Assembly (NCBI GenBank): GCA_947179485.1
Contig: OX359250.1
Span: 12,816,539-12,880,538 of the forward strand
Source of the DNA: Allacma fusca
Taxonomy: Eukaryota; Arthropoda; Collembola; Symphypleona; Sminthuridae
Length of the DNA stretch: 64,000 nucleotides
Direction: 5' to 3'
The notes below the pieces were generated by a model, which was not told the DNA's origin, made no database searches, and saw nothing but the letters and a program-made list of their open reading frames with translations. The position numbers and the translations under genes were made by a program. Each line of letters opens with the position of its first letter. Positions within the stretch are counted from its first letter, which is position 1. This document shows, piece after piece, positions 31,090 to 56,560 of the stretch.

Positions 31090-32463
31090 ATGGATAATTG
31101 TAAGTAGTGGCTGCAAATATAAATATTGGCTTGTGTTTGAGTGTAAGAGTGTAATTGTGTTAATTAAATAATTTTTTAAATATTTTAGTATGTAACTTGC
31201 TGCGCTCATGCAGTGACTGTACCACAAACCCAAATTGTAATTGGGGAATACTGTTCCAGCAAGCGGGGCAATGCGTACGGGATATTGCTGAAATTGGCGA
31301 GGAAGTGCTCGGAATTGCTCGATCTCCAGCCGAGTGTGGAGATCCTCAGTGCCAGAGCACGGTCGTGCGAAAAATCTCAATTATTGATTGGTCGGTTACT
31401 GGTAAGTTGTTTATTAATCTTGTTGTCAAAACCAATGTCAGTCCTTGTCGCTCCTTGTGACTCCTTGTGGCTCCTTGTGGCTCCTTGTGGCTCCTTGTTG
31501 GTCCTTGTGGCTCCTTGTCGCTCCTTGTGGCTCCTTGTGGCTCCTTGTCGCTCCTTGTGGCTCCTTGTGGCTCCTTGTCGCTCCTTGTCGCTCCTTGTCG
31601 CTCCTTGTCACTCCTTGTCGCTCCTTGTCGCTCCTTGTTGCTCATTGTCGCTTCTTGTCGCTCCTTGTTAGTCTTTGCGTCAACTACATTGTTGTCAATC
31701 CATTAATTACCCGTGACTTAAAATAAATAATTTAATTTCAAATTACAGTTAATTTTCCAGGTGCACTTAGTGTTGTGGGAGCAATTTTGTTAGGAGGAAT
31801 TGGGTTTGCTGTATTCTGGCTGCTGCAAAGACGAGCTTCAGCACAGTACAGGCCCCAATTGAACGAACAGGAAGCTGCCAGAGTTCGAGGGTTCGTCCCT
31901 GCTAACAACCGATACGCTCGACGGAACACCATTCGAGCATGGCTTGAGGACGTGATGCAGCAGGAAGGGGATGCAGAGGACGTAGCTCTTGGGCGTCAAG
32001 GTAATATTTATAAATGCAATACGCCAATGTGAGGCAATTTAATAATGTGCGTAAGATACATCACTAATAAAAATTTTGTGCTCATACAGTTTTGGATCAA
32101 TTACGAGCAAATCTTGCAAACGACGCGCTTGACCAGCTCCGTCGTCAACAAGTCCGTGCTGACCGCTACAATGAGCAGCTTGACCAACAAGTCAATAGGC
32201 CTCACGGAAATCCATTGCTTGACCCAGCATTTCAGCCCCCCGAGGATTTGGCAAATCAGCCAGCTTTGCTGGTTCTGAATGATCCAGAAGCGGTCGTTGT
32301 CCAAGATAATGGTGTAGGAGGTTTGTTGGCTCAAGAGGTAGAAGTCCCTCCTGCAAATCAGATGCTGGTTGAGGAAGTCAACCGTAGTCCCCGTCGAGTT
32401 GCTCTTCCACGACAAGCCAAAGTTGTTGCAACTGAAAGACTGCGTCAATTCTTTCGCCGTTGA
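31090..32463 (+). CDS. Single-pass membrane protein with PSI-like cysteine ectodomain
   Basis: Four exons join in phase 1: 31090-31099 (a 10-base micro-exon with the ATG), 31189-31401, 31761-32000 and 32090-32463, giving 278 aa. Residues 5-32 carry the spacing C-x5-C-x2-C-x5-C-x-W...GQC, with the string CSDCTTNPNCNW. This resembles the plexin-semaphorin-integrin (PSI) cysteine module, although the Cys that normally follows the Trp is Gly. A helix at about 75-96 (VVGAILLGGIGFAVFWLL) is followed by RR and a Gln/Asp/Arg-rich tail with coiled-coil character (LDQLRANLANDALDQLRR). No cleavable signal peptide is seen, so the helix may act as a signal anchor. The architecture is shared with the gene at 50.6-51.8 kb near the other end of the element. 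An entry, attachment or host-membrane role is speculation. Intron 2 holds a 10-bp tandem array. Confidence 0.6.
31441..31664. repeat. 10-bp minisatellite in an intron
   Basis: About 22 tandem copies of CTCCTTGTNN, mostly CTCCTTGTGG and CTCCTTGTCG, fill the second intron of the membrane-protein gene. The CG variant creates TTGTCGCTCCT, the same 11-mer that forms the arm of the 48-bp repeats at 52.3 and 54.7 kb. The lack of stops across it on both strands follows from the repeat and is not coding. Confidence 0.93.
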
Positions 32464-32789: not shown

Positions 32790-33287
32790 ATGAAAGTAAA
32801 TCAGTTGAGATGCCACTCTTGCCGTTTTAGTTACTTGTATAATTTAAAAGCAAGGCATATGGTTAGGTTGCAAGTACACGATACCAAACAGTATTGTAAT
32901 CGGTGTTCAACAATACTTTTAATTAAAAAAACAATTTCTGAGATTTACAATACATCTAGGGAACTCGCAGTGTCTTCTAGTGGCAGTTCAAAACTAGATA
33001 AGGCTTTTGTTCCCGCCTATTGGGTCAAAACGTTCAAGTCATTTTGGAACTCTAAATGCCAGTTTTGTAAAAGTGACTCGTTAGAAGAGGATATTACAGA
33101 GCGCCAGTTCCATTTAGAGACCTATTCGGATTACAAGCAACTGTGTAAAGGCATTATTGTGTACGAATTTGCTCTACAAGACTCTATTAGGCTGTGTGAA
33201 ACTTGTTTTGCAACATTTGTTCTCAATACAAATTGCCCTCAAGAAGTAAAGAACAGTTTTACAAAGGTGCTTAAAACTATTAAATGA
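32790..33287 (+). CDS. Cysteine-pair protein upstream of the integrase, unknown
   Basis: A single-exon ORF of 165 aa with four CxxC pairs: CHSC, CNRC, CQFC and CETC. These suggest two zinc ribbons or one treble-clef-like fold, separated by a Ser-rich linker. Basic residues are common in the first half. The stop overlaps the integrase start in an ATGA (33284-33287), so the two are probably expressed from one transcript or were once one frame. Many retroviral-type integrases have an N-terminal zinc-binding domain; this ORF could supply an analogous function in trans, which is inference. I do not recognise the family. Confidence 0.65.
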   Translation: MKVNQLRCHSCRFSYLYNLKARHMVRLQVHDTKQYCNRCSTILLIKKTISEIYNTSRELAVSSSGSSKLDKAFVPAYWVKTFKSFWNSKCQFCKSDSLEEDITERQFHLETYSDYKQLCKGIIVYEFALQDSIRLCETCFATFVLNTNCPQEVKNSFTKVLKTIK

Positions 33288-34545
33288 ATTCTGGAGAAAT
33301 AAGGAGAAGTTACTTAAACCAGCGTCTTTCGGGTTCATTTTCGGGCCTTGACGGGTTTTTGCGCCAGCGAAGAAAATGGAATGATAAGAAAGCAGTTGAA
33401 GCGGAACTTCAAACAATTCAAAGCTACAGTCTCCATAAACCAATTAAAAGAAAATTTAGGCGGCGAAACGTTCAAGTAGGACTCATAAATTCCACTTGGT
33501 GCGCTGATTTAAAAATCTTATCGGACAAGTGGGTTCCATATAACAACTGTAATAAATGTGTATTTGTATGCATGGATTTTTTAAGTAAGTATGCGTACTG
33601 TAGAATGCTAAAATCAAAAAGCTCGGAGCATGTCATCAAAGCATTTAAATCAATTCTAAAAGAAGCAAGCCCTGCGAAACCAGACTATTTGTGGACAGAC
33701 GAAGGTCAGCCATTTGTCTACAAATATTTTGTAGTAAAGCTTATAACTATAATGTACATAGTGTTGAAATGTTGTTAAATTGTAGGAACGGAGTTCCGGT
33801 CACGTGCGTTTCTAAACCTTCTGGACGATAATAAAATTGTGGCATATTCTACTTCCTCTCCAATTAAGAGTAGTCCGGCTGAACGACTTATTAGAACCCT
33901 ATTTACAAGAATTCAGCGCTACTTGACACACAATAATACATTTAAATTTGACGACAAACTCCAAGAATTTGTCACGAGTTACAATCACACGGTACATAGT
34001 TCAATCAAAAGGACTCCTGCCTCGGTCAAGGTTGAAGATAACTTTGATGTGTGGTGGGAATTGTATAAAAAGTATATACAGGAACAGTCTTTACCCAGAA
34101 AGCCTTCTCGGCTCCAAGTTGGTGATAAGGTCCGCATTGGAAGACATAAGATCATTTTTGAAAAAGGTAATCTATAATGTTTTAATTAGCTATTATTGAC
34201 ATGTATATTAGCCGTTATTTACATTTAAATACAGCTTTGCACGCGTATTTTAAGATTAAATTATATATTTTGAATACAGGATACAGCGAGAATTTTTCCC
34301 GAGAGATATTTGAAGTGGGGTCTGTACATAATACCCATCCGTATACATATAGCTTAGTAACTTTGAGGACCGCGGAACCACTCCAAGGAAAATTTTATTT
34401 TGAAGAGTTGTCATTGGTGGAGGAACAGGCGCCAAGGACAAACCAGGACGTTTTGGAAAACAAGAATGTCGACATACATACTTCCCGACCACAAGCCAAT
34501 ATGGATGACCCTGAGCAGCAAAATGAACGAAAGTTCGACTCCTAA
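33284..34545 (+). CDS. Polinton integrase (retroviral-type, DDE)
   Basis: Exons 33284-33704, 33786-34166 and 34280-34545 join in phase 1 to give 355 aa. The rve core starts after SYSLHKPIKRKF and shows the three catalytic acids: Asp75 in TWCADL, Asp139 in WTDEG and Glu173 in SPAERLIRT. SYNHTVHSSIKRTPA follows, typical of Polinton integrases. The C-terminal part has the beta-barrel signature GDKVRIGRHKIIFEKG, then FSREIFEV and GKFYFEELS, matching the SH3/chromo-like tail of the family. The enzyme inserts the element, normally producing 6-bp duplications. Its last 41 bases overlap the next ORF. All catalytic residues are present, so activity is plausible. Confidence 0.95.
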
Positions 34546-36404: not shown

Positions 36405-37874
36405 ATGGAGACTTCCGTGTTTCAAGAAGATCCAACGGTATTTTCTGGTTCGCAAGAATCCATTAGAAGTGAACTGTTGCCGTTTCAAAATTTTCCTACA
36501 GACGTCAGTACCTTAAATAGTGTTGACTATGTCCCATACTATCCTGTTGAATCTTTTACAGATAATTACCAACCAATTCAATTTGTAGTCAGTGGGGACT
36601 CTAGCAGCTACTTTGACCTGGCTGACAGTTTTCTTAAGATTAAAGCAAAAATAGTGAGGAGTGATGGAAACGTTTGTGACTCCACAGATTTGGTCTGTCC
36701 AACAAATTTGTTTTTTGACGCGTTTTTCAGTAACGTGCAAGTATTTCTGAATAACGTCCAGGTTTTTGACAGCTATAACAACTACCCCTTTTTAGCGTAC
36801 TTCCACAAAGTGTTGTCCACTAGCCCAGAGGAAAAAAACGGTCGACTTAAAGATTGTTTTTATTACCCCGACGATACGTTTAATGACTACGCAAGTAGTG
36901 ATGCTGGGTTTACGAAGCGATACGAAATTACCAAAAATTCCCAGCAATTTGTATGCAGTGGTAATATAACTGCAAATTTGTTTATGCAGCAGCGCTATGT
37001 CCCCTCAATGACAGAACTGAAAATAGTTCTTCGAAGGTCAAATCCAGAATTTTGCCTCGATTGCAAAACCGATGTTAAAGCGTCTATTTCCGGCTGCCCA
37101 TACAGTGTAGTTCTAAACGAGGCTACCTTGTTTATGAGTCGCAAAGTGGCTTCAAATGGTGTTCTCCAATTGCACCGAAGACTTTTGAATGAGGGAAAGA
37201 CCTTTAAATTGCCATGCCCAGCAGCCGATCTCAAATGCATTAATATTGCAGCGGGACTTTCGGCATATCACTCTGACGCCATTATACTGCCCAGATTACC
37301 AAAGTGCATTGTCCTGGGATTCGTTCCGACTTCAGCATACCTTGGAAAGCTGTCATCTAGCCCTTTTAATTTTGAACCACATGGTATTTCTAGCGTGACG
37401 TTCCAGTGGAGCAACGACACACAAGAATCCAGAGAATTTACGTATGACTTTCAAAACGGGGAAGCTGGGGTGTTTGACGTCACACTTGCATTGAGGTCCT
37501 TGAGGAGACTAGCTGCATCACAGATTGTTGGCAACGGCATAAACATTGAAAATTGGAGAAAGGGTAAACCGCTTACAAATAATGATTTAATATGTACATT
37601 AAGAAATTAACTCATGCAAGTCTTGCTATCAAAATATATAATTATTATTGTTGGAAGTAATATGGTATCCCTTTATTTCTCCACAGGTTATGCGCTTACG
37701 TGCATTGAGTTACTTCCGTTGTCGTCAAACAGTCTCTCTCTCAATAAGAGTGGACAAATGAAAATATCTCTGAGATTTTCTGAAGCCCTCAAGCAGAACA
37801 CCTCAGTACTTATGTACAATCTGGGTCAGCAGTGCGTGGAGATTGACAAAAACAGGCTTGTCACAGTTGACTGA
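36405..37874 (+). CDS. Major capsid protein (F54H12.2-like)
   Basis: Two exons, 36405-37563 and 37687-37874, join in phase 1 (G|GT) to give 448 aa. If the intron is missed, the frame ends early at 37610. The N-terminal motif YQPIQFVVSGDSSSYFDLA and FLKIKAKIV is the signature of the Polinton capsid family annotated in many animals as F54H12.2-like. The sequence ends with the conserved block LKQNTSVLMYN and VEIDKNRLVTVD, encoded by exon 2, which supports the splice. A double jelly-roll fold is expected for this family. The length is on the short side of the range. It should form the hexameric shell of the particle. Confidence 0.85.
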
Positions 37875-37891: not shown

Positions 37892-38558
37892 ATGAACACG
37901 TCGAGCATTGAACGTGCTCTCAACATTCTTTATGGTTCCAAAGGTGTTGATATTCCCGTGGTGGTCTGCTCTGCTGATAACGTAAATCCCTTTTTATCGC
38001 CTGAAAGTTTCCCTATGGCCTTGGTAATTAATACGTCCAGAGGCTTTGAGTCAGGTATAGTTTAACGCTTATGCTACATTTTATGCCTACTTTTATAAAA
38101 CTACCACGCGGTCGTTACTATTGATGGTTGACGGTATGTTTTTGTTTCGTATGTGATATGCAGGTGAACACTGGATAGCTGTATATATAAAAACTGCGGA
38201 AAGCGGCTACTACTTTGATTCCTTTGGGCAACCTATTCAAACTTATCAGCATGTCAGACTTCCGAGGCAGATTAAAATTATCAAAGAAAATTGTAAAATA
38301 CTGCAAAGTAGTTCCAGTAATTCCTGTGGTTACTACTGTGTTGCCTTCCTTTATTTTATGGGAATTGGACATTCGTATCAACAGTTTATGGACAAATTTA
38401 GTAGAAACAGGATGCACAATGATTTATTGGTTACTAAATTTGTAAATAAAATCAAGGGCTTTAACCCTTTAGGCTTATATAATAAAGCTAAAGCGTGTCA
38501 AGGGAATAAGGCAAAGTGTTTCTGTAGCAAAAGAAACAAATATTATTTGGGAATGTAA
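37892..38558 (+). CDS. Adenovirus-type (Ulp1-like) cysteine protease
   Basis: Exons 37892-38054 and 38164-38558 join in phase 1 to give 185 aa. The catalytic set is visible in order: His57 in EHWIAVY, Asp73 in YYFDSFGQ, Gln102 and Cys109 in SNSCGYYCV. The Gln-to-Cys distance of seven matches the adenovirus protease, as does the overall size of about 200 aa. The acidic residue is Asp rather than Glu, common among Ulp1-like members. It is expected to process capsid and core precursors, with candidate QxGG sites in the products at 36030, 39702 and the polymerase N terminus. An AATAAA follows at about 38567. Confidence 0.93.
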
Positions 38559-38649
38559 TAATTACTTAATAAAAACTCATTGGAATTGGTGATGGGAAAC
38601 CAGTCTTTACTTGTGCTTGCTTGCGTCACCACACACATGATTTACCCCA

Positions 38650-39303
38650 ATGGATTTTGAAAATCTTATCCCCATGTGCATACCAGTTCCTAGTACAATA
38701 CAAATACTTGGTCAAAGTTTTACCGGGAAGACCCATTGTGTTTTAGAACTTATAAAAAGGCGGGATGACATCTTTTCGGAGCGCATCGAAAAAGTAATAT
38801 ATTTGTGTGATTACATACAAGAAGATTTTACGGATTTTCAGTTGAACGATTCTGACGTTTCATTTGTCACGTCCCTCACAGAGTCTCAAATAGTACCCAA
38901 ATCATTCATCGTAATTGACGATCAGTTGGGAGTTTTGAAGAAACGTTGTGATTTGACTGATCTCATTAATAATCTTTACACTAAAATAAGCCACCATTTA
39001 AAGGTGTGTGTAGCATTAATTCTCCAACAGCCCTTTGTTCCATCCATACGAGAAGCTATAGTGAATACACAAATACTACTACTCTTCCCTTTCAACAGAG
39101 ATAAAAGAATTATCCGATACATTGCCAGCCAAGTGTGTCCAGATAACAGTGAATTTATTAAAGCTGCCTACACTCGGGCATTGAATTCCAGGGATTTTGG
39201 CTATCTGGTACTGAATTTTCATCCATTGCACCGTCGCTACAGACTTTTTGCGCGGAACGAATTATTTCCGTCTGACAAAACAGAGGTGTATGGACCAAAA
39301 TAA
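38650..39303 (+). CDS. Genome-packaging ATPase (FtsK/HerA, A32-like)
   Basis: A single-exon ORF of 217 aa. Walker A is GQSFTGKTH at residues 21-29 and Walker B is SFIVIDDQ near 85-92, followed by a polar stretch and the sensor-like LILQQPF. LLLFPFNRDKR follows, typical of A32-like packaging ATPases. The protein would pump DNA into preformed capsids. Size, motifs and position after the protease fit the Polinton ATPase exactly, and no break is seen. Confidence 0.95.
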   Translation: MDFENLIPMCIPVPSTIQILGQSFTGKTHCVLELIKRRDDIFSERIEKVIYLCDYIQEDFTDFQLNDSDVSFVTSLTESQIVPKSFIVIDDQLGVLKKRCDLTDLINNLYTKISHHLKVCVALILQQPFVPSIREAIVNTQILLLFPFNRDKRIIRYIASQVCPDNSEFIKAAYTRALNSRDFGYLVLNFHPLHRRYRLFARNELFPSDKTEVYGPK

Positions 39304-40984: not shown

Positions 40985-43900
40985 ATGGACAACCCCGTAG
41001 AATACCCGACCAGAAATTACCCTGTTGCTACAATGACTGGTGGAAAACAATTTGTAAGTAACCAATAAACTTATATTAAATTAACTGCCAGGTTACAATA
41101 CTGCCTGTAGACAAATTTGTCGTTCCCTGTCCCAATTTTTTCTATATGCGCAGAAACAATTTGATGGTGATGTATTGAACACTGCTTCTTTTTATAATTA
41201 CAGATTTTGCGATGTTCCGTTCCAAACTGCTCGTTCTTAACTCGTCGTTACATTACATACGATGACCATATACGTGCACGTCATTTGTGTGCACCCTGTG
41301 AAGAGTATCATCTCGATCTTGACGAACACGCTTGTACTCATTCCAACAGGCAAGTGGGCGGCGCTGAAAGGAGAAGTGAGCTTGACCTGACCAAATTCCG
41401 GGAATATTCAAGGAGTCATTATGGAGCGATTGTAACATATATTTATAATTTTGAAGAGGAAGTAGTAGAAATTGATCAAGCTTTTAGTAGTATGTACGTA
41501 AGCATTAAGAAACTCTTGGAGCAGATTTTAGTAATACGTGGTTCAATTAGGGTAGCGTTTAAATTGGGAGTGGACATGGAAAAATTAATTGTTCAAGACA
41601 ATGAGGTTGTTCAGCAGAAAGTCATACTTTATTTTTTTCAAAGTGAACACCACGTTTTATTTACCGGGGAAAATATTTTAAATATGACTATGAGCTGTGC
41701 AGACGAAATAGATACGAAAAAGTCACTTTTTATTGAAAACGGTAGTAACTTCCGTGTTATCAAACTAAAGTCAATGGAAATTAAAATTGGTGAATATAGG
41801 CCATTAGCAAATGTTCGAATTAAGCAATTCCTAAAAATGCCGATAAGTGCCCAAGGCATAGTTAATTTTAAAACAATCACAGACTGTTTTAAAACGGCCG
41901 TGTCAGCGGGAATATATTGGGAAGACGCTGCTGCCACAAATAAGCTGCTCCCCAAATACAAGAGAAGAAACCTGAAAAATTGCAGTACATGGCGTCGGTA
42001 TTACTCAAGACTTAATTTTTCAGGCGTGTGTACGGATTGCGATGGTCTTTCAGGCATATATGAAAGCATTAGCACGTTCGAAAAAAATAATTCTGTAAGC
42101 ATTAATATATTGTCTCATAAGGGCAAACAAGTTTATGTAGCCCGTAGGAGTTCCTTCTCGTTTTCCACTAAAATTAGTTTATTTCTCATTCAAAGAAAAT
42201 CCAATGTTGACACAGAACCCGAAAAATTTCATATTGTTTTAATACGTGATTTAAACAGGTTCTTAAGCCATCATAGTGCAAGCAGGCATGCTCGCTATGT
42301 ATGTAACAATTGTATCTTGTATTTCTCGTCGCAATTAGTGTACCAGAACCACATTAGACAATGTTGTATTACGTCGGACACAAGCATGACAATCGGAAAT
42401 GATTTATTTTCAAATACAAGATGCATAATTGACAAGCCTGTTGAAAATGTCATTTCGGAAGGAGCAAAGATAAAGTTTAACCGATATGATTTGACACTTC
42501 ATTTTCCGTATGTCATCTATGTATCCTTCCAACATTATGGACACGCCGACGAAAATGAGAACAAGTCGACAGTCACAGCAGGAGGAATAGCAGGTGGTCA
42601 AAAGGAATTAAAATTAAATGGTTACTCGTTTGTCATTGTGCGTAAAGACACAATGAGTGTGGGCAATGAAATCAAAAATACCAGTATTATTGCAGTTGAA
42701 CGACATTCTTCTGAATTTGGTATCATTGAACAATTTTTCAATCGTATTTTTTATTGGGCAAAGGAACTTTTGACAGAGATAAGGAATACAAATACGTTTA
42801 GAGTGCCTACTCTGGAACAGTTAATAGAATTTGAAAGCGTAACTAATTGCCAATTTTGTAATGCCGAATTCACTAACATTAGTAGCACAAAAAAATGTTT
42901 AGCCACCGAGTACCATGGGATTACCAGTCTTGGGACGAGTCTTTATCAAGCGTAGTATTAGACGATGAGGAGGGGGAAGATTTTGGCAGTCAAGAAGGCA
43001 GTTCCAATGAAGCAAAACCTATTTTAAAATGTTTTCACCACAATCATTTTGGTGGCAGTGGGGGTGGTGGTGGTAATATAGAAGCGATTATTTGTCAATA
43101 CTGCAATTTAAAAATCCTATCAAAAACACACATACCAATATTACTTCATTCACAAAGAGGTTTGGATTTTCGACTTATTGTTAACGGACTTGAAACTGGC
43201 TTATATAATGCACCCGGAATTCGGGTTTTAGCAAAATCGCCTTCAGATATTGTCCAAATAGAAATTGCATCCGATGTCTTGCATATTCCCAAGACTGGCT
43301 TGGCAGACAATGACTCAGTTTTGACAAATCAAAAGAATGGTTTTAAAAGGTCACGAAAAGCCAGGATACGATTCACAAATACTTTAAATTTTGTAAACGA
43401 ATCTCTGCAGAATATTATTGCTTCTTTAGATCCTGCTTCTGGTTCATCCCATATTTTAATTGAGTGCCTTAATTTATTTTTTAACGATACTCCCATCAAA
43501 ACAAACTTTCAGGAAATTATTGAAGTTATGACTAAGTTGCCCTCAATTGATATCTTGATTCAGTATGACTTTAAAAAATGTTACAAAGGTTCGGATATAA
43601 TAATATCGGATAATGACAACACAATATTTACTGACGAGGAAATTATGGCATTCAACAAAATTTCTAATTTATTTTCTTTGAAAACTGTCGCTTCTGTATA
43701 TAGCTTATATTGCTGTATTAATTCGGCGCAACTATCTGCGTTCTGGGAAGGTTACAGACAAAGAGCATACAATTGTTTTCGGCTGGACCCAACGGGTGTT
43801 TCAACAGCTTCTGCGTTTACATTTCAGGCTTTCTTATTTTTTAGCAAAGCAGAAATTGATATTTGCAGAGACCCTTCAATTACAAAATTGATCAGGTCTA

Positions 43901-45309
43901 ACCTCCGGGGTGGTATTTGCTACTCTAGCTCTAAAGTTACAAGAGCTAATAATAAATGGAATGAGGCAAACGGCGGCTACAACCCAAACAATAAAAAATC
44001 GTTTTTAGCTGCTTTTGATATAAATTCAATGTATGCTTACACTATGCAATATTTCTCTTACCCCACAAGTAATTTTGAGTGGATGAATAGAAACGAGTTA
44101 AATGCACTGTCATTTCCGCCAAGGCAAAATTGGAGGAATATTTCGTTGGTTGAGGAGCCTAGGGCATATGATTACATTCTTGAAGTAGACTTGCTTTACA
44201 ATAAGGATTTGTTCAAAGACACATCCGATTTACCATTAGCATTTGAGCATTTAATGCTGTCATATCTTGTACCAGGAAGCAATTCCAAATCTATTTGGCA
44301 GGGTGAAAGGAAATTACTGGGTACTTTCTATAATAAAATAAAATACGTTGTACACGGCAGACTTTTGAGATACCTAGTGTCATTTGGTATGGAAATTCAG
44401 CAGATTCATAGAGGGGTCAAGTTTGCCCAAACCCAGCTATTTAAAACTTATATTGATTTTATACTATCCCAAAGAATTGCCGCCACGAGTCAAATTGAAA
44501 GCAATCAAGCAAAAAGTTATGGAAATTTTCTTTCAGGAAAGTTCGTCTCTGCAAATACATTCTGTAATTCTTCGACATTTTGCTCCAGCAGAGCAAATTG
44601 TCATAAACTAATTGCGTCAACACACTGTAGAGATTTTGAGTCCTTGACACCAAACTGCAGTGTCTTTACAATGGCCCCAAAGAAAATTAATCCCAACCAT
44701 GCACAAATTATTGGGTTTTCAATACTTGAACAAAGTAAACTAGTTCTCTATCATTCTTACTACCAGGTTATTAAAAATGTATTCGATGCGCACCTCAAGT
44801 ATATTGATTGTGATGGCTACTATCTGGAAATATTTTGTGATTCAGAGGTACAATTTTTGGAACAAATTGCAAAAAATCACGAACTATTTGACTTGTCAAA
44901 ATTGCCAGAGTATCATTTGCTGTTCAAATTGTACGGGTCCCAGTATCCAAATTTGCGACAAGGGCGAGGTCAAATAGCTGGTAAAATTAAAATCGAAAGT
45001 TTGAATATTGGCGAACTTGTAGCTTTAAGAGCTAAGGAATTTTCAGTGTTGACATTTAGTGGTCAACAAAAGAGCCAATACAAATCAATCCCAAAAATTA
45101 TTTCCCGTAATTTTACGCATGAAATGTATAAAAAAGCAGTCACAAAAAATGGAATAATTAAGGTAAAGTATGATGAAATTCGAGTTGTTGGAAACCAATT
45201 AAAAATTGTAACCGTTGAGCGATTAGGGTTTAAACATATAAATCTTGCAAGAGTATTTCCGGATGAAAAATACATGAACTATAGTATCCCATATGGTTTC
45301 AATGGATAA
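40985..45309 (+). CDS. Protein-primed family B DNA polymerase, frame broken at A7
   Basis: A 69-base first exon (40985-41053) joins in phase 0 to 41204. This frame stays open to 42955; a second frame, one base back, runs from 42886 to 45309. Together they cover about 1390 residues. The N terminus has a C2H2 finger (CSVPNC...HIRARH) and QVGG at 73-76. A Cys/His block follows RYVCNNCILYF. The zinc pair CQFC lies just before the shift and HHNHFGG...CQYCNLK just after it. Polymerase motifs are intact: FDINSMYAY near 44018 (A), KSYGNF near 44515 (B-like) and YIDCDGYY near 44803 (C). Exonuclease motif I reads YVIYVSFQ instead of the usual acidic DFE pattern. The terminal protein is probably in the N-terminal region. 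The shift may be programmed, a mutation or a homopolymer error. Confidence 0.9.
42889..42895 (+). promoter_or_regulatory. A AAA AAA slippery heptamer at the polymerase frame switch
   Basis: Seven A residues are in the upstream frame as A AAA AAA, the correct phase for a -1 slippage heptamer. The downstream frame opens only at 42886, just after an in-frame TAG at 42883-42885, so the two frames overlap for only about 70 bases and the heptamer is in that window. The last A is also the first base of an ATG in the second frame. A stable downstream pseudoknot was not evident by eye. Confidence 0.5.
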
Positions 45310-45464: not shown

Positions 45465-47176
45465 TTAGCGTTTCCTATAAAGCTTTTGCAGTCGCATCAT
45501 TTCATATTTTTGTAGGTTGGTGGCATGAATGATCTCGTCAGTTTTTTCTGTAAATCTGTCATAAGCAATTGAGTCATCCGTAAACATTATCTGGTCCCAA
45601 CGGGTTACTCGAGACATGCACAAGTAATCTACTTTGGCCCATATTTCGCGAACACCCAGATTTACTGCTAAGCGATTGAGTGAAAGTCCTTGTAGTTTAT
45701 GCTTCGTCGTTGCCCATCCCAGTTCTAAGGGAAATGCTTGCACCTGCACAAAATCCATTGCAGCATTACACCAAGTTTTTTCAGTGTACCTAAAGATAGG
45801 AAATCCACTTCCACGCTTCGTTGAAATTTTTGGACCTAAATAATTTTCAATGTCCACAACAATGCAATTGACATGGCGAGGGTAAACCCCTGGCTTATCC
45901 AGCTGTTCGTCAAATATAATTTCAACCACGGTTCCTCTGGACCCGTTCAACACACCCATAGATGTAGCCAAATTTTTTGTTAAAAAGACAGGAGCCGAAA
46001 TGGCAATGTGCAGTGGACGAGTACCATTAGAGGTTACAATGATTTCGTCATCAGTAAACTCCTTCCTCAGCATCTTTCTATAAAAAAATGTAATATAGAG
46101 TAATACACTGTTCAAGTGTAAGGCAACTAACCAGACGATACAAAACTCAGTAAACAATAATTATTACAACTTACAAGTTATGCATTCTAACTTCACATCT
46201 CAATGAAAATGTGTGGAGCGCTTTTTGAAATAGTCTCTGCTCACTTTCTGGCAGGTTTCTTTGTAGTCTAGTACGGACAAAGTCGACGTCTTCTGGCAAC
46301 GTTTGGTTGTAACGAAGCCTTGTAAGAAACCCTCGAAATTTTAATTGTTCAGGACAGTCCCCAAATTGGCGCAATGGTTTTGTTAGCCGAAACACGTCCT
46401 TAATTTCCCAATAAGAGCGCGATGTGTCATAGTGCATATGCTTTTGATTTTGATAAGCAGGGAAAAAAATGGCGTGGTCGCAAACAGGTAAAGGCTGTAA
46501 ATAACACCAATAACATTAAACTCAATTTTTCACGATTTTTAATTTTAGTTATTTATACATGTTTTTAAATTCTAACTTGAAGTGGATCTCCACATATTAT
46601 TAGACTTCGTGAGCCAAAGGGCAAATGTTGAAAATCTTGATCGCATGAACGCATTATTAAATCGATCGTATGCAAAAGTCTTAATGATACAAGTGAAAGT
46701 TCATCCAAAATAATCCATCGAATCTTCCTAAATTGTTCAAGTGTAGCAGTACTGTACGCAGTTCGATTCTTAATTTTTTTCAAGAAGTCTCCACTAAATT
46801 TGGCTGGAATTTTGAATGCAGAGTGAATAGTCTGTATTTTTAAATGGAACGCACACATGCCTGTCAACACTGCACAACGGTAGTCAAAATCTGGAATACT
46901 TTGTTTCTTACACTCAAGCATGTACTTTAAATGGTTTAAAACGCAAGATTTTCCGTAACCAGCTGGCGAAAAAAGGATAATCTTAGTCGGCTGGTCATGC
47001 ATAAGATTAATTGGTGTCTCCAACCGTTTGCGTACGAAATTAACCAATATTTGTTGCTCTTTTGTCAATTGGTCAAAACAAATTTCTGGCTTTGGAATTT
47101 CTTTGAGTAGAGAATTCTGTTGAAAATTCCTTTTCCATCGCTCAATAGTTGCGGGTGTTAATTTTTTATGTTCCAT
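45465..47176 (-). CDS. Pif1-like superfamily 1 helicase
   Basis: Three minus-strand exons, 47176-46577, 46494-46175 and 46077-45465, join in frame to give 510 aa. Walker A is FSPAGYGKSCVL (residues 69-80), Walker B IILDELS near 155-161, motif III CGDPLQ|PLPV across the first splice, and the C-terminal motifs are WATTKHKLQGLSL and YLCMSRVTRW. The LNGSRGTVVEI block is a Pif1 feature. Compared with the consensus, the first Gly of Walker A is Pro and the Ser of HKSQG is Leu; the ATPase core looks usable. It lies tail-to-tail with the polymerase, 155 bases apart, so unwinding for element replication is the likely job. Confidence 0.88.
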
Positions 47177-47538
47177 GACTACAAGTTCTTACAAAAATTG
47201 CTTTAGACACTGTTACTCGGACTGGGGAAGTATTACACACTGTTCCAACTTTGCTCCGCATCTTCACACTTAACAAAACTCAACGACCAATCAGATGACT
47301 GACAAAAATACATTCTAGCAAGGGGAATAAAATTAACGCCAAAAATGGCATTACACGTACAATAATGATAGAATTAACCCCGTTGGGAGTAAAGTCTGTA
47401 GCCCCCTTCAGGGCTTCAACGCTGACATAAAAGTGCAAATCAATATGAATTCATGGCAGTTTAAAGTTCGCCGTCAACGAGTTCATTTATTCGCATTACC
47501 TACTGTCGCTTTTATTATACCTGCAGTTTATTTGCAAA
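47177..47538. promoter_or_regulatory. Divergent promoter region inside the Polinton
   Basis: A 362-base gap separates the minus-strand helicase start (47176) from the plus-strand unknown gene start (47539). It must hold promoters for both. The sequence is mixed in composition and no clear TATA box or repeat was recognised. Confidence 0.35.
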
Positions 47539-48486
47539 ATGGACAAATTTCATTCAAGCAACACCAATGAGAACAGTGGGGACAAACAGTCCTCACAAGG
47601 TTTTAAAAATTCAAATTATTTAAACAATTTTTAAATATCAAATTTATGTGTACATGATGGCAATAGTAGTCGAGTGTGATGAAAATTAAATATACATAAC
47701 ATTAATTTTGCAGCATGGGGAAGTTTAAAACGGGATCATGGGTCACAGCCAAAGCATATTCGCAAGGTCAAACTTGCACGGTTTGACCCAAATAATCCTC
47801 CAAAAGCACCAAAGCTTGCTGGGGCCATGTCAAAGTTCTCCCCGTTTGACCCTAACTTCTGGGCTACCCCTGATGTTTACATTGTTAGTTTTTCTGTAAC
47901 ATAAACTTACCAGTTGATGTCAATGTTTGGGGTTATTTAAGATTTTGTGAATAGCTGGACGACGAGCAACAGTACTTTGCAAAGAAGGTCTACAATGAAG
48001 CAAGTCGGTGTGTCTTTCTTCACGTTGGAAAACAGAATCCGAAATCAATTCAGCGGATCCGTTTTACTCAGTACGAAGGCCAAAAACTTCGTCCGTTGGT
48101 CGAAAAAGTGTTGGAGCAAATTGATCGCCACGAGAGGGCTGGGAAATCTGAGAGTGACCCATTGGACTTCTTTAAAGAGAATCCCGACAGGGCCTTCTCG
48201 TTTAACCCCAAGAAAGTCAAAGAGTTTTGGAAGGAAGAGGCTGACTTGGAAACATGCAACTTAAAGATCCGCATTCATTTCAATCAGCGTTCTGGAATTT
48301 TTGAGTTTGGATTATTGAATCCCGTGTCGGAGGAAGCTGCCGAGCGATTTGATAATTGGGCTGTAGGTGCTAATCAATTAAATGGTTTTCTATCTAGACC
48401 TGTTGGGTAATGCTTTGAACATTTTATTTTAGGGACCGTGTTTGTTTTTCTCCGCACCACTGATGACAGCCCTGCTGACTTTCATT
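47539..48486 (+). CDS. Spliced Polinton cargo gene, unknown
   Basis: Exons 47539-47599, 47714-47883 and 47955 to about 48401-48406 join in frame; a last short exon from 48433 is likely, but two donors (48402 and 48407) give different C termini, so the end is uncertain. The product is about 235-250 aa. It starts with a Ser/Asn-rich segment and has two FDPN motifs (ARFDPNNPP and PFDPNFW) in a Pro/Lys-rich linker, then a mixed alpha/beta part with DDEQQYFAKKVYNEASRCVF and EKVLEQIDRHERAGK. No catalytic motif or family is recognised. It is divergent from the helicase and convergent with the RING-like gene. Confidence 0.55.
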
Positions 48487-48932
48487 GACGAGCCTGTTCC
48501 CGTCTAAACTTTGGACATGCAGTACTTCATTGAGTTTAATACGCTAATGAAATGATTTTTTTTATTTGGTTGTGGGATACTATTTTTATTTTCTATTATA
48601 AAATATGATTTTTACTTAATCAACTGACTCATAACGTTTGATACATACTATATAAGATTTTGATTGGGTGTTGGATTTCATTTATTAATAAATCAAGGGG
48701 TTCATATCATGCAAATGTTTTCATCGATAATTTATTTTTACCATATGCATTTATGATAAAAAAGTAAATACATGCAATGATTTAGATTTTAGCCCACCAC
48801 ATTATTTTATTTCACCATAGAAGAACAAATAAAATGTTATTGACATCAATGCAAACACCACCACATACATCATATTAATTGCCCCCGCCACCACCATAAT
48901 TAGTATTAATTTTTTGTCAATAGAAATAAGAT
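48487..48932. other. Noncoding spacer between convergent cargo genes
   Basis: AT-rich, with a CCACCACC-like low-complexity patch near 48855-48900. AATAAA-like signals occur on both strands. No gene is seen. Confidence 0.45.
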
Positions 48933-50239
48933 TTACAATTCATCATAGAATTTGGAAATATCAGTCTCATTATTATCTGGAGATTCTGGTGATTCTCTTA
49001 TTTCCAGTTCATCAATCCGGTCTCCGTCATCATCATCATTGTCATCAGTTGAAGAACCAATGTTTTCATCAACTATAGCTTTGGTCTCCAAACTGACACA
49101 GTCATCACTATCATTTTCATTATTGTCGCCACCAGAAATGTCCGAGTAATTTTGAGACAGTCTTGACGTTGAGGGTATGCACATTGATGGAGAAGTTTGC
49201 TGTTTTGCTTGCGATTCCAGTGGAACGTCACAGGTCCTGGTCTCCTCCACAAGGTCCACAATTGGAATTGCTTTACTGTCTCTTTCCTTTAGCTCATCCA
49301 GAATATCAGCGACTTCGTGCATTCGCTTCTGAGATAAATCAAGCTCGTGGCCAGTCAATGGGAAACAGAAACTGGACTTTTCTGGAATTTAATAATGGCA
49401 ATTATAAATTGTCTAGAACAAAAACAATTTTAGGATAATTCCCCATCACCATTTTTATTCACAATATAACATTCAAAATCGTTACCTTGCTTTTTCTTGT
49501 GGTCATCTGCCATTTTTTTAAGCATCTGGTAAACATCCCGAAATTTTTCTGGCTTCTTGCCTGCTGAGTTCGTCGGCCCGGATTTAGTTTCCCGTGGGGT
49601 GCATAAAGTTGTCTTGGGCTTTCTATGTTCATCCGTAGGCTTGGAATAATCGACTGGGTGGAATCGCGGCCATTTGCTAGTGGGTTGTTGATCAATTTCT
49701 GAATTTTCCCATCGACGACGATATACTGCCATTCGAGTCTTGTGGTCAAGGTAGATTTCCATGTTTATGCGACATTTTTCAGCCGGAGACTCCACCGGGC
49801 CTCTATACTGACACCAGTGTGACTTTGTATCAAACTCTTCGAATTTTGAAAATCGTAAGTCTTGGACGCTTCTGAATTGCCTCTTGCAGTATGCCCCTTG
49901 GCTGAACCCTGGACAGTACAGATTGATTTCTTCATCTTCCGGTACACTACCTTTGAATTTTGGCGACCACATTGTCTGCGCATAAGTTGACAGACAATTT
50001 AGGTGGAACATATGAAAACAGTTTGTTGGCATTGCTGGGTCTTCCAAAATCGACACGACGTAACCAATTGCAAATCTATGCAAATCCCGGGACTCATACT
50101 GTTCCAAAAATGTCGCTGTTGAAAACCGAGTCGCGGATTGTGCCAATAGCAACTCTTTGTCTAGCACAAAGTCAGGTTTGACGTCTTGAAATAGGTCTTG
50201 TGCACAAATTGTACACACTAGCACTTGCGACTGAGACAT
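48933..50239 (-). CDS. Divergent RING-H2-like protein with acidic tail
   Basis: Two minus-strand exons, 50239-49450 and 49381-48933, join in phase 1 to give 412 aa. Candidate zinc ligands follow the RING-H2 order: Cys9 and Cys12 (CTIC), Cys74, His76, His79 and Cys82 (CFHMFHLNC), then Cys109 and Cys118. Two loops are longer than usual (61 residues between the first pairs, eight between the last Cys), so this is a divergent RING or related zinc fold. The second half is Lys/Pro-rich and ends in a long Asp/Glu/Ser tail with DDNDDDDGD. If it is a ubiquitin ligase, the tail could recruit substrates. No closer family is recognised. The upstream ORF start at 50245 is not an ATG; 50239 is. Confidence 0.6.
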
Positions 50240-50626
50240 ATTCAATGCTTTGATGTATACAGTTCAAAGTGGAAAATAAAACTAATTTTAGTAAACGAAT
50301 TCTGTGAGTAGCGAGAGTGAGCAACAAAGAAATGTAGAGTATATTTTCTTTATTTTTAAAATACCAGTCATTATTATTACAGTATGAAAATAGGCATGCA
50401 TCTACAGAACTACATATGTTAAAAAATCATTCTTCAGGGTCCAATAACTACCTGTCCGGAATGAACGGAAATAAACAGTGCTTTATGTGTTTGCACTCTA
50501 GGGTAATTGTTTTGGAATACCAGAATTAGCCATACAATTATCTATGGATGTAAATCACACACTTGTGTGAAATCAAAAACAATAAAATAATACAAGTATG
50601 AACAAAAATCTCCAAAGTATTGTTCT
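50240..50626. other. Noncoding spacer between minus-strand genes
   Basis: AT-rich DNA between the RING-like gene start and the 3' end of the membrane-protein gene; it should hold the RING gene promoter. Nothing specific was recognised. Confidence 0.4.
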
Positions 50627-51824
50627 TTAGAAATTTGTGGTAGCTTCCCATTCACAAAGGGACGAAGAATCGTTCCGCTTCTTGATAAACTTAACCCTTC
50701 CACCCTGGGTCCAAGCGGAGAGTTTTTGAAAAACTCTCTCGTCATCAGCCTCTTCATCATTGACACTGCTGCTGCTGGTATTTGGTGGCAGGAACGGATG
50801 CACTCCGGTGTGATAATTTGCCGTGACTCTATTTCTAGAACTTCCCTCCGAGCTTCTTTGCAGGTAATCTGATGCCTTACATTCACTCCTCGGTGGTGGA
50901 GTCGGAGGAAGTTCAGACAAATGAACTTGACCGAGCGGCACATTTTCATAGACTTGGTCATACAACGGATTTCGCACAGTAACAACTGTAGGTTCGGCAA
51001 CGTCATGCAAACCTCCGCCAGACGCAGTTGACCAAGCCGGGATCTGGTGTCTGTCGTCATTGCAACCACCGGAAGTTTGGTTTAGTTGTGTAGCTGCCTG
51101 CCTGGCCGGCTGATTATTCTCCATTTCGTCCCCGTCCAACTTAACCAATGACTCCAGCTCAACTTCCTCACGGACCAACACGCAGCTGGATGAGGTAGGA
51201 TTCCAGCCGTGACGATTGCACCTGGAACGAATGAATTTCCAGAGGTAGTGCCCAACAACAAAAAACCCGGTCGACAATACAGCACCTACAAATAATTTGA
51301 AACTATACATGTAGAGAACTGCCTTAAAAAATTCGATTGTGCAATTTCACATTTCACATAATATGTAATTCCCAAAAGCAAAATGCAAAAACAACAGTAT
51401 ACCTACTGCTGCAGGGAAAATTGAAGCAAGGCTAAACTGAAATCCAGACTCAATAATAGCTGGCTCATTTCCAGGAGAGACGGATGACGGTGGACAGCTT
51501 GATACATTTTTAATGAGCTTGACAATTTCCTCATTGACATTCTCCAGATCGAAGGCACAACAATAGGAGTCATTGGCCAAGCGGAAAAAATGCCCGCCAT
51601 CACCCAAACATGATGAGCAGTGATTCTCGCCTGCATACCTGTAGCAATCTAAAATAATTCAAGACGGAAAATTTATTTCTTAACCAAACTCACAAGCGTG
51701 TCCAACGATATACGTATACTATTCAAAATGACAACATATAAACCACATATAGATATTATATCGTAAAATAAGAATAAGAATTTAAGAAAAAGCCTCACTC
51801 ACTGAAATCTGGTAAATCTGACAT
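50627..51824 (-). CDS. Single-pass membrane protein with Cys ectodomain and signalling-type tail
   Basis: Exons 51824-51803, 51648-51403 and 51285-50627 join in phase 1 to give 308 aa. A short first exon, MSDLPDF, leads straight into a cysteine module (C9, C18, C21, C37, C38, C59) that resembles a PSI-type domain, as in the gene at 31.1 kb. The helix spans about 79-104 (PAAVGAVLSTGFFVVGHYL), followed by KFIRSR. The 200-residue tail has NPLY (195-198), YENV (202-205) and PPTPPPR (216-222), which match NPxY/PTB, YxNx/SH2 and class II SH3 ligand patterns. It has no clear cleavable signal peptide, so type III topology is possible. A role as a surface receptor or signalling decoy is inference. Confidence 0.6.
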
Positions 51825-52293
51825 TTCGGCAGGAGTCTATTGTCAATTTGTCTGAATTTGGAATTTCAAATTGAACTGAAATTATTTGTTCACTTAAATT
51901 CTTTATGGAAAATTACATGTATGGAAAGAACAAGTAACGATCTGAATAATAAACGAAGAATATAACAGATTCGTGATTGACACTTGTCAAAACTTTGTGA
52001 AGACGTTTTGACAGTCTCACTTGTCGTTTTGAATTTTTGCTTTATCAGCGAAATCCGATATTTTCTTCAAGGAGACTACAGGCTTTACAGCTCAGTATTA
52101 TGAAACATTGACACGTGTGCAATAGCACGTTGCTTATCAATATTTTTAAATAAGCTAGAGTAACCATCTCATAAATACAAAATTCTTTAAATTATTTTTA
52201 AATGTAAACACTTGTGAACAAATACTTCTGTTCGTAAATACCAAGCCATAAATCATTATTTTGTAGAGAAGAAATGTGTATGTGAAAAAATAA
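51825..52293. other. Noncoding region upstream of the minus-strand membrane-protein gene
   Basis: AT-rich. It presumably contains the promoter of that gene and borders the first 48-bp array. No gene is seen. Confidence 0.4.
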
Positions 52294-52938
52294 AGATGTA
52301 AAACCATAGAGACCGACAATTATTTATCCTCGTTGTTGGTCCAATGTAAAATCATAGGGAGCGACAATTAAGTATTCTCATCGTCGCTCCTATGTAAAAT
52401 CATAGGAAGCGACAATTAAGTATTCTCATTGTCGCTCCTATGTAAAATCATAGGGAGCGACAATTAAGTATTCTCATTGTCGCTCCTATGTAAAATCATA
52501 AGGAGCGACAATTAAGTATTCTCATTGTCGCTCCTATGTAAAATCATAGGGACCGACAAATACATACACACTCAGTGTCGCTCCTATGTAAAACCATAGG
52601 GAGCGACAAAGACTTACACTCAGTGTCGCTCCTATGTAAAATCATTGGGAGCGACAAAAACTTACACTCATTGTCGCTCCTATGTAAAATCATAGGGAGC
52701 GACAAAGACTTACACTCATTGTCGCTCCTATGTAAAATCATAGGGAGCGACAAAAACTTACACTCATTGTCGCTCCTATGTAAAATCATAGGGAGCGACA
52801 AAGACTTGCACTCAGTGTCGCTCCTATGTAAAATCATAGGGAGCGACAAAGACTTACACTCGTTGTCGCTCCTATGTAAAATCATAGGGCCCGACAAATG
52901 TATATACTTATTGTTGGTCCTATGTAAAATTACAGGGA
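52294..52938. repeat. Array of 48-bp palindromic units, first copy
   Basis: About thirteen tandem 48-bp units. Each has a GTCGCTCCTATG arm, a TAAAAT spacer and a CATAGGGAGCGAC arm, giving a 12-bp stem with one bulged base, then a 15-16 bp variable spacer (ATTAAGTATTCTCAT type in the first units, AAGACTTACACTCA type in the rest). The arms also pair across neighbouring units. The two outermost units carry altered arms (GACCGAC with GTTGGTC). Open frames on both strands result from a multiple-of-three period and are not genes. Confidence 0.95.
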
Positions 52939-53509
52939 GTATTTATTTTTATTTAGAGTGTCATTGCGATGCGTATTCATAGGAGATGGATACAGTTTCA
53001 GTGTTTATGGTAATTCATCCTAATGTCATAGACACTTAGTTTTTTTGCTCAGACAGTCAATTAGCAAATTAAGTTTGTGGTAGGAGATGCCGCCACTTGT
53101 AGCTATACTCAATTGCTACTGATGCGGGTGGCTCCTAATTTTAAATACTCTCCTCTGTATCTGAAAACTGTGTGCAAGTATTTTTTACTCCGGGTTTTAA
53201 ATTATAAATTTCTATTTTTCAACTTACACTTTGAATCGCTTTGAAGTTTACAACTAAATTAACTTAATTGGCAATTTAAAAATCTTGAACGGTTGTATTA
53301 TTAAATCAGTTAAAGTCATTTCACAGCATATAGTCATTTGGCGTGGTTTCTGGCATCACTCGTCCGGTTGGTAAGTTTTTTCCTCATTTACATATAAATT
53401 AAGAGTATGTATTTATAGATTTGAATTTTTTCGTGTGGAGTGTTTTACACATACATTAAAATGTGTGCATTCTGAATATGATTGTTTTGTAAATTTTAGT
53501 CAATTTAAA
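52939..53509. promoter_or_regulatory. 5' region of the JmjC gene
   Basis: Noncoding region between the first 48-bp array and the ATG at 53510. A TTTTAG acceptor-like string just before the ATG (53494-53499) suggests an upstream untranslated exon. No clear TATA box was found. Confidence 0.35.
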
Positions 53510-55762
53510 ATGAATACATATGCCAAGTTAAGTGAGCTGTCTTGGTTGTGCCTGCCCAAGCAAATGGCAAAGGAAGAATTCCAAGAGCTCGTGTCCGCTC
53601 CACTACCCTTCCACCGAACATCCATTGACCTCAACGCGATATCCGTCTTTAGATTCCCCGATGAGTATCAACTAAATGAGCAGAAAATCTTTAATCTGGA
53701 CAAGATTCGACAACGGCGAATCAAAACCACAGACCAGTGCGTCTATAGACAATTAAAAGAAGGAATTTACCAACGAATACCCACTGAGAGAAATTCAAGC
53801 TCATCCAAAGTGATTCAAGAGTACCATCCAAAGAAGAATTTTTATGGGAGAACCATTACTGTGGATGACATCATGTGCAAGAAAATAGACATTTTGGATT
53901 CTTTGGGGAAAGTCTTTGAACAGACCTGCACGAAGAAGCAAGAGTATGTAAATGATTTCGAGCTGTTTCCAAATCAAACCAAGAATTATTGGCATCCATT
54001 CGCCCTGGATACGCTGGAATGTCCCCTTTATACCGACCAATCCCTGAATACCTTAGACGGAATCAACAGGCCATGGAATTACTTTGGCAAATTTGGGACT
54101 TCATGTAAGTGTTTGTTTTTGTAAATATAAATTTTATTAAAGAGAAAATAATTTGATACTAACACACGTATAGATATATGTTTATAAGGTTGTGGTATGT
54201 TGTTTATTTGTATGTTTTAGCACCGTTCCACATTGATGATTTTAATTTGTCATCCGCCATTTTTCATGTGGCGGGTTGTACCAAAGTTTGGATAGTGATC
54301 CCCTCAACCTATACCAAAAAATTTGAAGACGCTTTGGGCAAAAATGTTCCAAAAGAAGCCCTTGCCAAGGTTGCCACAAATTGCAAGCGGAAGTGGACCT
54401 GTGCAAAAGTTTTGGTCACCCCAAAAAACCTAACTGAGTGGGGAATCAGACACGTAATTGTCTGCCAAAATCCAGGGGACTATATAATGCTCATGGGAGG
54501 CTCATATCATGCCGTCTTCAATTACGGGGGGAACATTGCCAGATCGGTAAATTATAATGATGATAGATATTTTGAAATGGAGAATAATGAGTGTACTTGC
54601 AAGCCAAAGAACCAAATGAAATTCCCATTCAACATTCATACTATGCAACAACATTGGCACAAGTACCAGGAGGAAAGAATAGGTAAGTATAACAAAACAA
54701 TTAGTAAAAAACTTTTAATCATAGAGTATAACAAATATTTTGTCTGGAGTGTCGCTCCTATGTAAAATGATAGGGAGCGACAAAAAATTACACTCATTGT
54801 CGCTCCTATGTAAAATCATAGGGAGCGACAAAAAATTACACTCATTGTCGCTCCTATGTAAAATCATAGGGAGCGACAAAGACTTACACTCAGTGTCGCT
54901 CCTATGTAAAATCATAGGGAGCGACAAAGACTTACACTCAGTGTCGCTCCTATGTAAAATCATAGGGAGCGACAAAGACTTACACTCGTTGTCGCTCCTA
55001 TGTAAAATCATAGGGAGCGACAAAGAATTACACTCAGTGTCGCTCCTATGTAAAATCATAGGGAGCGACAAAGACTTACACTCAGTGTCGCTCCTATGTA
55101 AAATCATAGGGAGCGACAAAGACTTACACTCAGTGTCAGTCCTATGTTAATGCATTCTTTTTAATTGTTTTTTCATTAAATTTTAGATTGGGCAAAGAGG
55201 CTTCGAATGGAATTTCCCTTCATGCAGCAAACTTTGTTTCCAGTCAGTGCCAACGAGAGTGTTTTGCCCTGCTCTTCTGCCATCGCTTCCGGGAGTGGAT
55301 CAGCCGATACACAGACTCCCCAAGTTCAAACCATCGAAGAGCCATCAACTGGGGAGCCCTCATCACATCCGAGGACCGGAAAGGATGATTGTAAGAAGCA
55401 GGGCAAAAATTCTAAGCGACCTCGTGACGAGTCTCCTCCCAAAAAGGACATCCCCTGTAAGAAAACTTTTAACTGCACTGTAGAAGGATGCACAAAGGTT
55501 TTTCCGTTTTTGTGTAGGATGAATGCTCACGTCCGGGAGTTCCACAACAAAGAAGCTAAAGGTATGTATATATTAGAATAATTGCCTTTAGTTTAAAATT
55601 GCTTAAATTAAAATGATTAAAAATATAATCATAACAATTTTATTTTTAGTGATGTGCGAACAATGTGGCCAAAGCTTCTGCGGCTTCAAGAATCTGAAGC
55701 GCCATATGCAGAATGGGATATGTTTGGGAAAGGGCAAGGATGGTCAGGGAAGCTCCAAATAA
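53510..55762 (+). CDS. JmjC-domain protein with C-terminal zinc fingers
   Basis: Exons 53510-54104, 54221-54682, 55187-55561 and 55650-55762 join in phase 1 to give 514 aa. The JmjC core starts near WNYFGKFGT. The Fe(II) ligands are His202 and Asp204 in PFHIDDFN and His295 in SYHAVFNYG; the 2-oxoglutarate-binding Lys is probably 220 in CTKVW. These are the residues of KDM4-type histone lysine demethylases. A Ser/Pro-rich linker carries a basic cluster (KNSKRPR...PPKK, near 426-439). Two fingers follow: C2H2 at 449-472 and C2HC at 480-502. Intron 2 carries the second 48-bp array. Catalytic residues look intact, so a DNA-targeted chromatin dioxygenase is the favoured reading. Capture from a host genome is inference. 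Confidence 0.85.
54749..55146. repeat. Array of 48-bp palindromic units, second copy, in an intron
   Basis: About eight units of the same 48-bp repeat as at 52294-52938 fill most of intron 2 of the JmjC gene. Here most spacers are AAGACTTACACTCAG-like. The last unit is degenerate (GTGTCAGTCCTATG). Open frames on both strands are periodicity artefacts. Confidence 0.95.
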
Positions 55763-56313: not shown

Positions 56314-56560
56314 TCACAATTGTCATATCGCATATGCAATTTTCACATACAGTATATGCATAATGGAATTACATATATAATATTAAAAACTACTGGATGA
56401 TATATCGCATATGCCATTTTAATATGCAGTATACAAATAATTTAATACTACATATGTACATAGTATTAAAAATCATAGGATGCGCTGAAGCGCATCAAAC
56501 CTATTTGAGATTTTTGCTGAGTCATTCAAGCTCTCAGTTTTGCGTCGACTTTACTCTTCT
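56314..56560 (-). repeat. Right terminal inverted repeat of the Polinton
   Basis: Inverted match of 30492-30737, ending in CTCTTCT. It includes the GATGCGCTGAAGCGCATC near-palindrome. The match starts after TCACA at its inner side. Confidence 0.92.

Follow-up and report, generated by a model that had tools for sequence, protein, structure and literature searches.

A KDM4-like JmjC gene with two zinc fingers as a recurrent component of a Polinton family in Allacma fusca

Results

A JmjC-zinc finger gene lies inside a Polinton

The window, by which we mean the whole stretch of 64,000 nucleotides of Allacma fusca DNA that was analysed, contains a Polinton spanning positions 30492-56560. The last gene of this element, ending 0.55 kb short of the right terminal repeat, occupies positions 53510-55762 and is predicted from the sequence to consist of four exons, namely, 514 codons plus a TAA stop codon (55760-55762). 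Inspection of the splice sites in the sequence showed GT-AG borders at all three introns, which preserve the reading frame. A preliminary description of this DNA had placed the gene inside a Polinton, and this position is confirmed for the JmjC-zinc finger gene reported here, since terminal repeats bound an element that carries Polinton genes. The features of the element are the following.

30492-30737, plus strand: left terminal inverted repeat, beginning AGAAGAG; 236 of 247 positions identical to the right repeat (96%)
33284-34177, plus strand: integrase (rve) in two frames with a probable intron; PF00665, E=1.5e-6, 28.8 bits, cut-off 32.6; second frame by eye
36405-37610, plus strand: major capsid protein candidate; two unnamed metagenomic relatives with 42% and 39% identity, 96% of length
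38157-38558, plus strand: adenain/Ulp1-type cysteine protease candidate; PF00770 E=0.013 and PF02902 E=0.015, below cut-off; motif by eye
38641-39303, plus strand: packaging ATPase candidate; Walker-A-like GQSFTGKT by eye; no match in Pfam
42895-45309, plus strand: family B DNA polymerase; PF03175, E=5e-12, 45.9 bits, cut-off 25.8
45465-47188, minus strand: PIF1-type helicase in three frames; PF05970 E=2.2e-16, PF21530 E=1.1e-5
49430-50263, minus strand: RING-like protein; several RING families, all below cut-offs; kept in related elements
52296-52939, no strand: 48-bp tandem array in 13.4 copies, preceding the JmjC gene, with a break in the identity between elements along its span
53510-54104, plus strand: JmjC gene, exon 1; read from the sequence
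54221-54682, plus strand: JmjC gene, exon 2, with JmjC core, iron ligands, Lys and Cys zinc site; PF02373 E=2e-20, KDM4A E=6e-11
54748-55147, no strand: second 48-bp tandem array, within intron 2, 8.3 copies
55187-55561, plus strand: JmjC gene, exon 3, with basic linker and C2H2 finger; read from the sequence, finger by pattern
55650-55762, plus strand: JmjC gene, exon 4, with C2HC finger and stop; read from the sequence, finger by pattern
56314-56560, minus strand: right terminal inverted repeat, beginning AGAAGAG

The Polinton hallmarks found in this element are its inverted repeats, an integrase scoring slightly below the cut-off and a family B polymerase, whose N-terminal part is presumably encoded by the frame at 41198-42955. 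The capsid candidate gave no match in Pfam and was named by eye, from what we take to be a resemblance to Polinton capsid proteins. The PIF1 helicase is split over three successive minus-strand frames, owing either to introns or to decay. A 6-bp target-site duplication was not found at the window copy, which is bordered by AGTTTC on the left and by CTGGAT on the right; it was either lost or never present at this copy, and the repeats and genes still fit a Polinton. Near the left end, at 31442-31668, there is a 10-bp array of TCCTTGTCGC in 22.7 copies, which has the word GTCGC in common with the 48-bp arrays. The flanks of the window outside the element carry animal-type genes, including an amino acid permease (AA_permease_2, E=2e-10) and, by eye, AAMP-like and TSR1-like frames. 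In the host flank, at 573-1238, inspection by eye also showed small frames rich in cysteine that look like secreted, defensin-like peptides.

The JmjC core is closest to KDM4 enzymes

A profile search with exon 2 matched the Pfam JmjC family (PF02373) at E=2e-20 with 73.8 bits, for a cut-off of 24; with a score 50 bits above this cut-off, chance resemblance was ruled out. Among JmjC proteins of known structure, the best PDB matches of exon 2 were KDM4A (E=6e-11), Rph1 (3e-10) and KDM4C (1e-9), followed by KDM4B and KDM4D, and the weakest was KDM5C (E=2e-4), KDM4 and Rph1 ranking above KDM5 in both PDB queries. The JmjC core that had been read from the sequence beforehand thus stands, with KDM4-type proteins as its nearest structures.

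Alignment with KDM4A, at 29% identity over the core, placed H3, D5, K21, W23 and H96 of exon 2 opposite KDM4A H188, E190, K206, W208 and H276; S108 and N110 opposite S288 and N290; and C54, C60, C124 and C126 opposite C234, H240, C306 and C308. We take H188, E190 and H276 to be the iron ligands of KDM4A, K206 to be its 2-oxoglutarate lysine, Tyr132, Asn198 and Lys206 to be its contacts with 2-oxoglutarate, and C234, H240, C306 and C308 to be the KDM4 zinc site. The window gene therefore has what marks a JmjC oxygenase, namely, the JmjC profile, the HxD/E...H iron ligands and the lysine for 2-oxoglutarate, and the KDM4A positions G170, Y177, S288 and N290 are conserved in it. The catalytic set had been described as matching that of histone lysine demethylases. 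It is indeed KDM4-like, but not identical, as HxD replaces HxE and, whereas the Tyr132 and Lys206 residues are kept, the Asn198 position is occupied by Ile. At the four zinc-site positions, Cys3His in KDM4, the window copy has Cys throughout.

Comparison among copies showed Ile at the Asn198 position in 16 of the 18 that are readable there; this residue is a mark of the family and not the decay of a single copy. At the Tyr132 position, 10 of 19 copies carry Thr, Ala or Phe, and, with both of these positions altered, 2-oxoglutarate binding may differ or be weak. At the H240 zinc position, Cys is found in the clade of the window copy, and Ala, Ser or Gly in divergent copies. No JmjN domain was detected by Pfam; exon 1 had no match in PDB, and its sole Pfam match, to DUF5772, was sub-threshold. 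The structure predicted for the JmjC exon from one sequence (pLDDT 46) was too poor for use, and a tree of JmjC exons with KDM4A, in which KDM4A, L041 and L020 form long branches and the majority of forks are poorly supported, carries no claim. The copy L041 (C10:42.51M) carries a JmjC variant with HxE, in a continuous 428-aa frame that runs from the N-part into a C2H2 finger.

The basic linker followed by C2H2 and C2HC fingers, which the preliminary description had also claimed, is confirmed in exons 3 and 4, the fingers by pattern. The C2H2 finger of exon 3 reads C-x4-C-x12-H-x4-H, and an intron separates it from the C2HC finger of exon 4, which reads C-x2-C-x12-H-x5-C. With exon 3 of the window copy as query, Pfam called no finger; in a relative, it gave a C2H2 match below cut-off. 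Both fingers were found by pattern in 13 of the 16 loci scanned, at a spacing of 176-198 bp in the loci checked by eye, as expected with an intervening intron. Exceptions are L015, which counts among the 13 and has an altered spacing, and L018, with finger 1 only; neither finger was found by pattern in L007 and L019.

JmjC copies lie beside element genes elsewhere in the genome

The genome (392.7 Mb) yielded 68 JmjC-exon matches, or about 54 places after merging pieces within 10 kb. We read the flanks at 20 places besides the window, 33 further places falling outside this sample. The preliminary description had left it to other copies to show whether the gene also lies outside the element. Element genes or an element end were found beside JmjC at 17 of the 20 places, namely, at all ten best-matching places and at seven of the ten more distant ones, and the remaining three showed no element gene within the 6-kb stretch read. 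As a control, element-gene hits were obtained in none of six host stretches of 6 kb within the window. A single accidental capture was ruled out by these related copies beside element genes.

At nine of the ten best-matching places, element proteins lie upstream and, wherever present, follow the order of the window (PIF1, orf479, orf489, RING-like, membrane protein and orf513, then JmjC), with JmjC exon 1 identities of 33-99%. Among these nine, orf489 is missing in two and the membrane protein in one, and PIF1 was not hit in two within the stretch read; the right repeat follows downstream in six, and the three most divergent gave no match to the repeat of the window. The tenth place (C8:62.09-62.106M) holds two JmjC copies, L031 and L032, 5.5 kb apart, together with a terminal repeat; the stretch read there contains no further protein of the element, and the place is perhaps a short derivative element. 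At the seven more distant linked places, the element genes lie 1.5-7.5 kb upstream of JmjC. Overall, the link consists of polymerase, helicase, or ATPase plus protease at nine of the 17 places, of the repeat only at one, and of accessory genes only at seven, including L047, where it is orf513 alone, a single short gene.

Some copies differ in their gene content. L042 (C8:67.42M) has ATPase- and protease-like genes upstream of JmjC, and not the RING or membrane genes, in a differing gene order. L022 lacks the part corresponding to 48979-50153 of the window, the flanking parts aligning at 98.5% and 94.7%, and the same loss is found in L023, where most of the RING-like gene is gone.

Catalytic exons are under purifying selection and many copies are decayed

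Among the exon 1-2 comparisons with computable dS above 0.15, the others being saturated or too recent, dN/dS was 0.06-0.16 in 13 of 14 and 0.26 in the remaining one (L013-L019 exon 1); the value of 0.06 comes from L001-L007 exon 1, whose dS is saturated at 3. Fisher tests gave p <= 3e-7 in all 12 exon 1-2 tests over six diverged pairs. Between diverged copies, purifying selection thus acts on the catalytic exons. Exon 3, which encodes linker and finger, showed weak constraint (Fisher p 0.014-0.12, three pairs). Recent pairs had dN/dS values from 0.26 to 0.80, based on very few changes, and exon 2 of L005-L006 shows nine amino acid changes against one silent change.

Sixteen of 20 copies retain the H/D/H iron ligands, and 16 of 20 have the lysine, all four residues being present together in 14. 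H/D/H is lost in L005, where two iron ligands are gone, and in L011, and it is unreadable in the best match of L008 and L016. Only 11 of the 20 lack stops where exons 1 and 2 were matched, and many JmjC copies are decayed or dying. As a whole, the JmjC gene recurs in a Polinton family as a part kept under selection, rather than being a single cargo.

Tandem arrays and exchange of the JmjC end

The units of the two 48-bp arrays contain an imperfect inverted repeat of 12-13 bp, GTCGCTCCTATG...CATAGGGAGCGAC, whose left arm has 19 hits in the window, all of them within these arrays, for 0.07 expected. Four copies (C1:65.9M, C1:79.3M, C8:69.0M and C10:6.5M) are 96-99% identical to the window up to the array at 52296-52939, and 74-89% from this array onwards, over the JmjC gene and as far as the right repeat; in two of the four, exon 2 lies outside the compared flanks. 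Two other copies show the reverse pattern: their identity to the window is 99% before 47400, falls to about 95% where 47400-52290 can be aligned, and reaches 97.5-100% in the segment that begins with the JmjC gene and ends at the repeat. These opposite patterns show that the JmjC gene and the element end were exchanged by recombination between near-identical elements, and the alignments place the break within the span of the array at 52296-52939. Moreover, in the exchanged part of L001 as compared with L004-L006, exons 1-2 have a dS of about 0.8-1.3 versus about 0.3 in exon 3, which, together with the second array in intron 2, suggests that a second exchange may have taken place.

The divergent copies L035, L037 and L039 have different arrays, made of 20-bp units that share ATACATTGG in 12-25 copies, and situated some 2.5-3.6 kb upstream of the JmjC gene in the 10-kb flanks scanned. 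From the position of the arrays and their difference between lineages, it is tempting to guess that they might be the target of the zinc fingers.

Discussion

Possible functions of the JmjC-zinc finger gene

Hosts silence transposons largely through histone methylation. The retention of working parts in many copies suggests that the transposon uses its JmjC gene, perhaps resisting this silencing, and a counter-silencing role would be plausible. The reading that we favour, and which we hold to be somewhat probable, is that of a working DNA-targeted lysine demethylase of the KDM4 type by which Polintons would relieve silencing by the host. The two zinc fingers would bring the JmjC oxygenase to DNA; the oxygenase would most likely strip histones of repressive H3K9me3 or H3K36me3, mostly in the chromatin of the element itself, and the element would stay transcribable. 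We infer the demethylase activity, the histone substrate, the DNA target and the benefit to the element, and we count against this reading the altered 2-oxoglutarate contacts, the missing JmjN, the variation at H240, the decayed copies and the weak constraint on exon 3. A more elaborate version is doubtful: the fingers may bind the adjacent array, where JmjC would clear H3K9 methylation, with finger and array co-evolving by lineage while elements trade enzyme-plus-end cassettes that recombine at the array.

The altered 2-oxoglutarate contact positions would also suit an element-encoded transcription factor, with fingers that bind promoters of the element or the host and a JmjC part that serves as a scaffold or as a non-histone hydroxylase; such a factor would control gene expression of the element without erasing histone marks. 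It could have its binding sites in the arrays that precede the gene in the window and in three divergent elements, and yeast Gis1 is reported to activate transcription without needing its JmjN/C part (PMC7140707). However, constraint is stronger on the catalytic exons than on the finger exon, and the iron ligands, which a mere scaffold does not need, are kept in 16 of 20 copies, so we regard this explanation as rather unlikely. It seems very unlikely to us that a host family of KDM4-like JmjC genes, useless to the element, was joined by Polintons that inserted beside its members or captured them by chance. Introns typical of hosts and some 54 related places would agree with such an origin, as would the three of ten stretches that lack an element gene and the seven of 17 links that rest on accessory genes only, but the gene sits between terminal repeats, is accompanied in nine other elements by the same genes, whose order is unchanged wherever they are present, and evolves under purifying selection between element copies; the element genes or ends beside 17 of the 20 other places read put a further strain on it.

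The enzyme might otherwise demethylate mainly the chromatin of the host, opening genes useful for virus-like replication or creating integration sites, a variant of the demethylase reading that we consider improbable. For giant-virus KDM4-like enzymes, chromosome breaks that aid integration are one of the options proposed (PMC11244446), whereas the change of array next to the gene from one element to another would sooner suit self-targeting, without amounting to a test of it. If a self-targeted demethylase is indeed what the gene encodes, a transposon family would be keeping its own DNA-targeted methylation eraser under selection, and counter-silencing by virus-like transposons would become directly testable in an animal, the array DNA offering a candidate target and the swapped alleles a set of natural experiments. 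Polintons would then join giant viruses as a kind of DNA element in which KDM4 was captured.

Comparison with known systems

Our search of the open-access literature, which leaves aside preprints and most subscription journals, found no report of a JmjC or demethylase gene in Polintons or Mavericks. In viral contigs, scanned in a way that needs short near-exact stretches, none of the queries had a confirmed relative, be it the JmjC exon, its alignment with KDM4A (16 stretches matching a pattern), the polymerase (one stretch) or the capsid candidate (four stretches). No relative was found in phage records and no match in Rfam, and the JmjC exon had no match in the protein database, in a search that can miss distant and intron-split proteins.

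With Polinton/Maverick elements, the window element shares terminal repeats, integrase, family B polymerase and capsid-like and protease-like genes, but it adds the JmjC-zinc finger gene, a PIF1-like helicase and a RING-like gene, and is devoid of the 6-bp target duplication. The animal KDM4A-D proteins are the nearest solved structures, at 29% identity to KDM4A over the core; unlike them, the window gene has HxD rather than HxE, Ile in place of Asn198, added fingers, and no PHD or Tudor domain that we could find. Rph1, which is among the best PDB matches, also has zinc fingers, and the combination of a JmjC part with two zinc fingers is common to Gis1, Rph1 and the window gene, although the latter has no recognisable JmjN, has a C2HC second finger and is carried by a mobile element. 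Gis1 of yeast is described as having JmjN/JmjC and two C2H2 fingers that bind DNA (PMC7140707).

Among viruses, the giant virus CpV-BQ2 of Chrysochromulina is reported to encode a predicted histone demethylase, for which host chromatin remodelling was suggested, and the Polinton-like viruses of the same study are described as encoding a DNA methyltransferase, with no demethylase named in the parts of that article dealing with them (PMC6459981). This demethylase and the window gene both belong to virus-type elements, the carrier of the former being a giant virus. A close parallel comes from the endogenous giant viruses of Amoebidium, whose KDM4-like genes are described as JmjC-only, multi-exon and present in many copies, and were proposed to avoid silencing by host chromatin (PMC11244446; Sci Adv 2024); adintovirus insertions, which are Polinton-related, are described in the corresponding part of that paper without JmjC. 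Given this precedent, the counter-silencing idea itself is not new. Both systems have in common a KDM4-like multi-exon gene in many copies on a large carrier derived from DNA viruses, but, as compared with the JmjC-only genes of Amoebidium, the carrier here is a Polinton and its JmjC gene comes with two zinc fingers.
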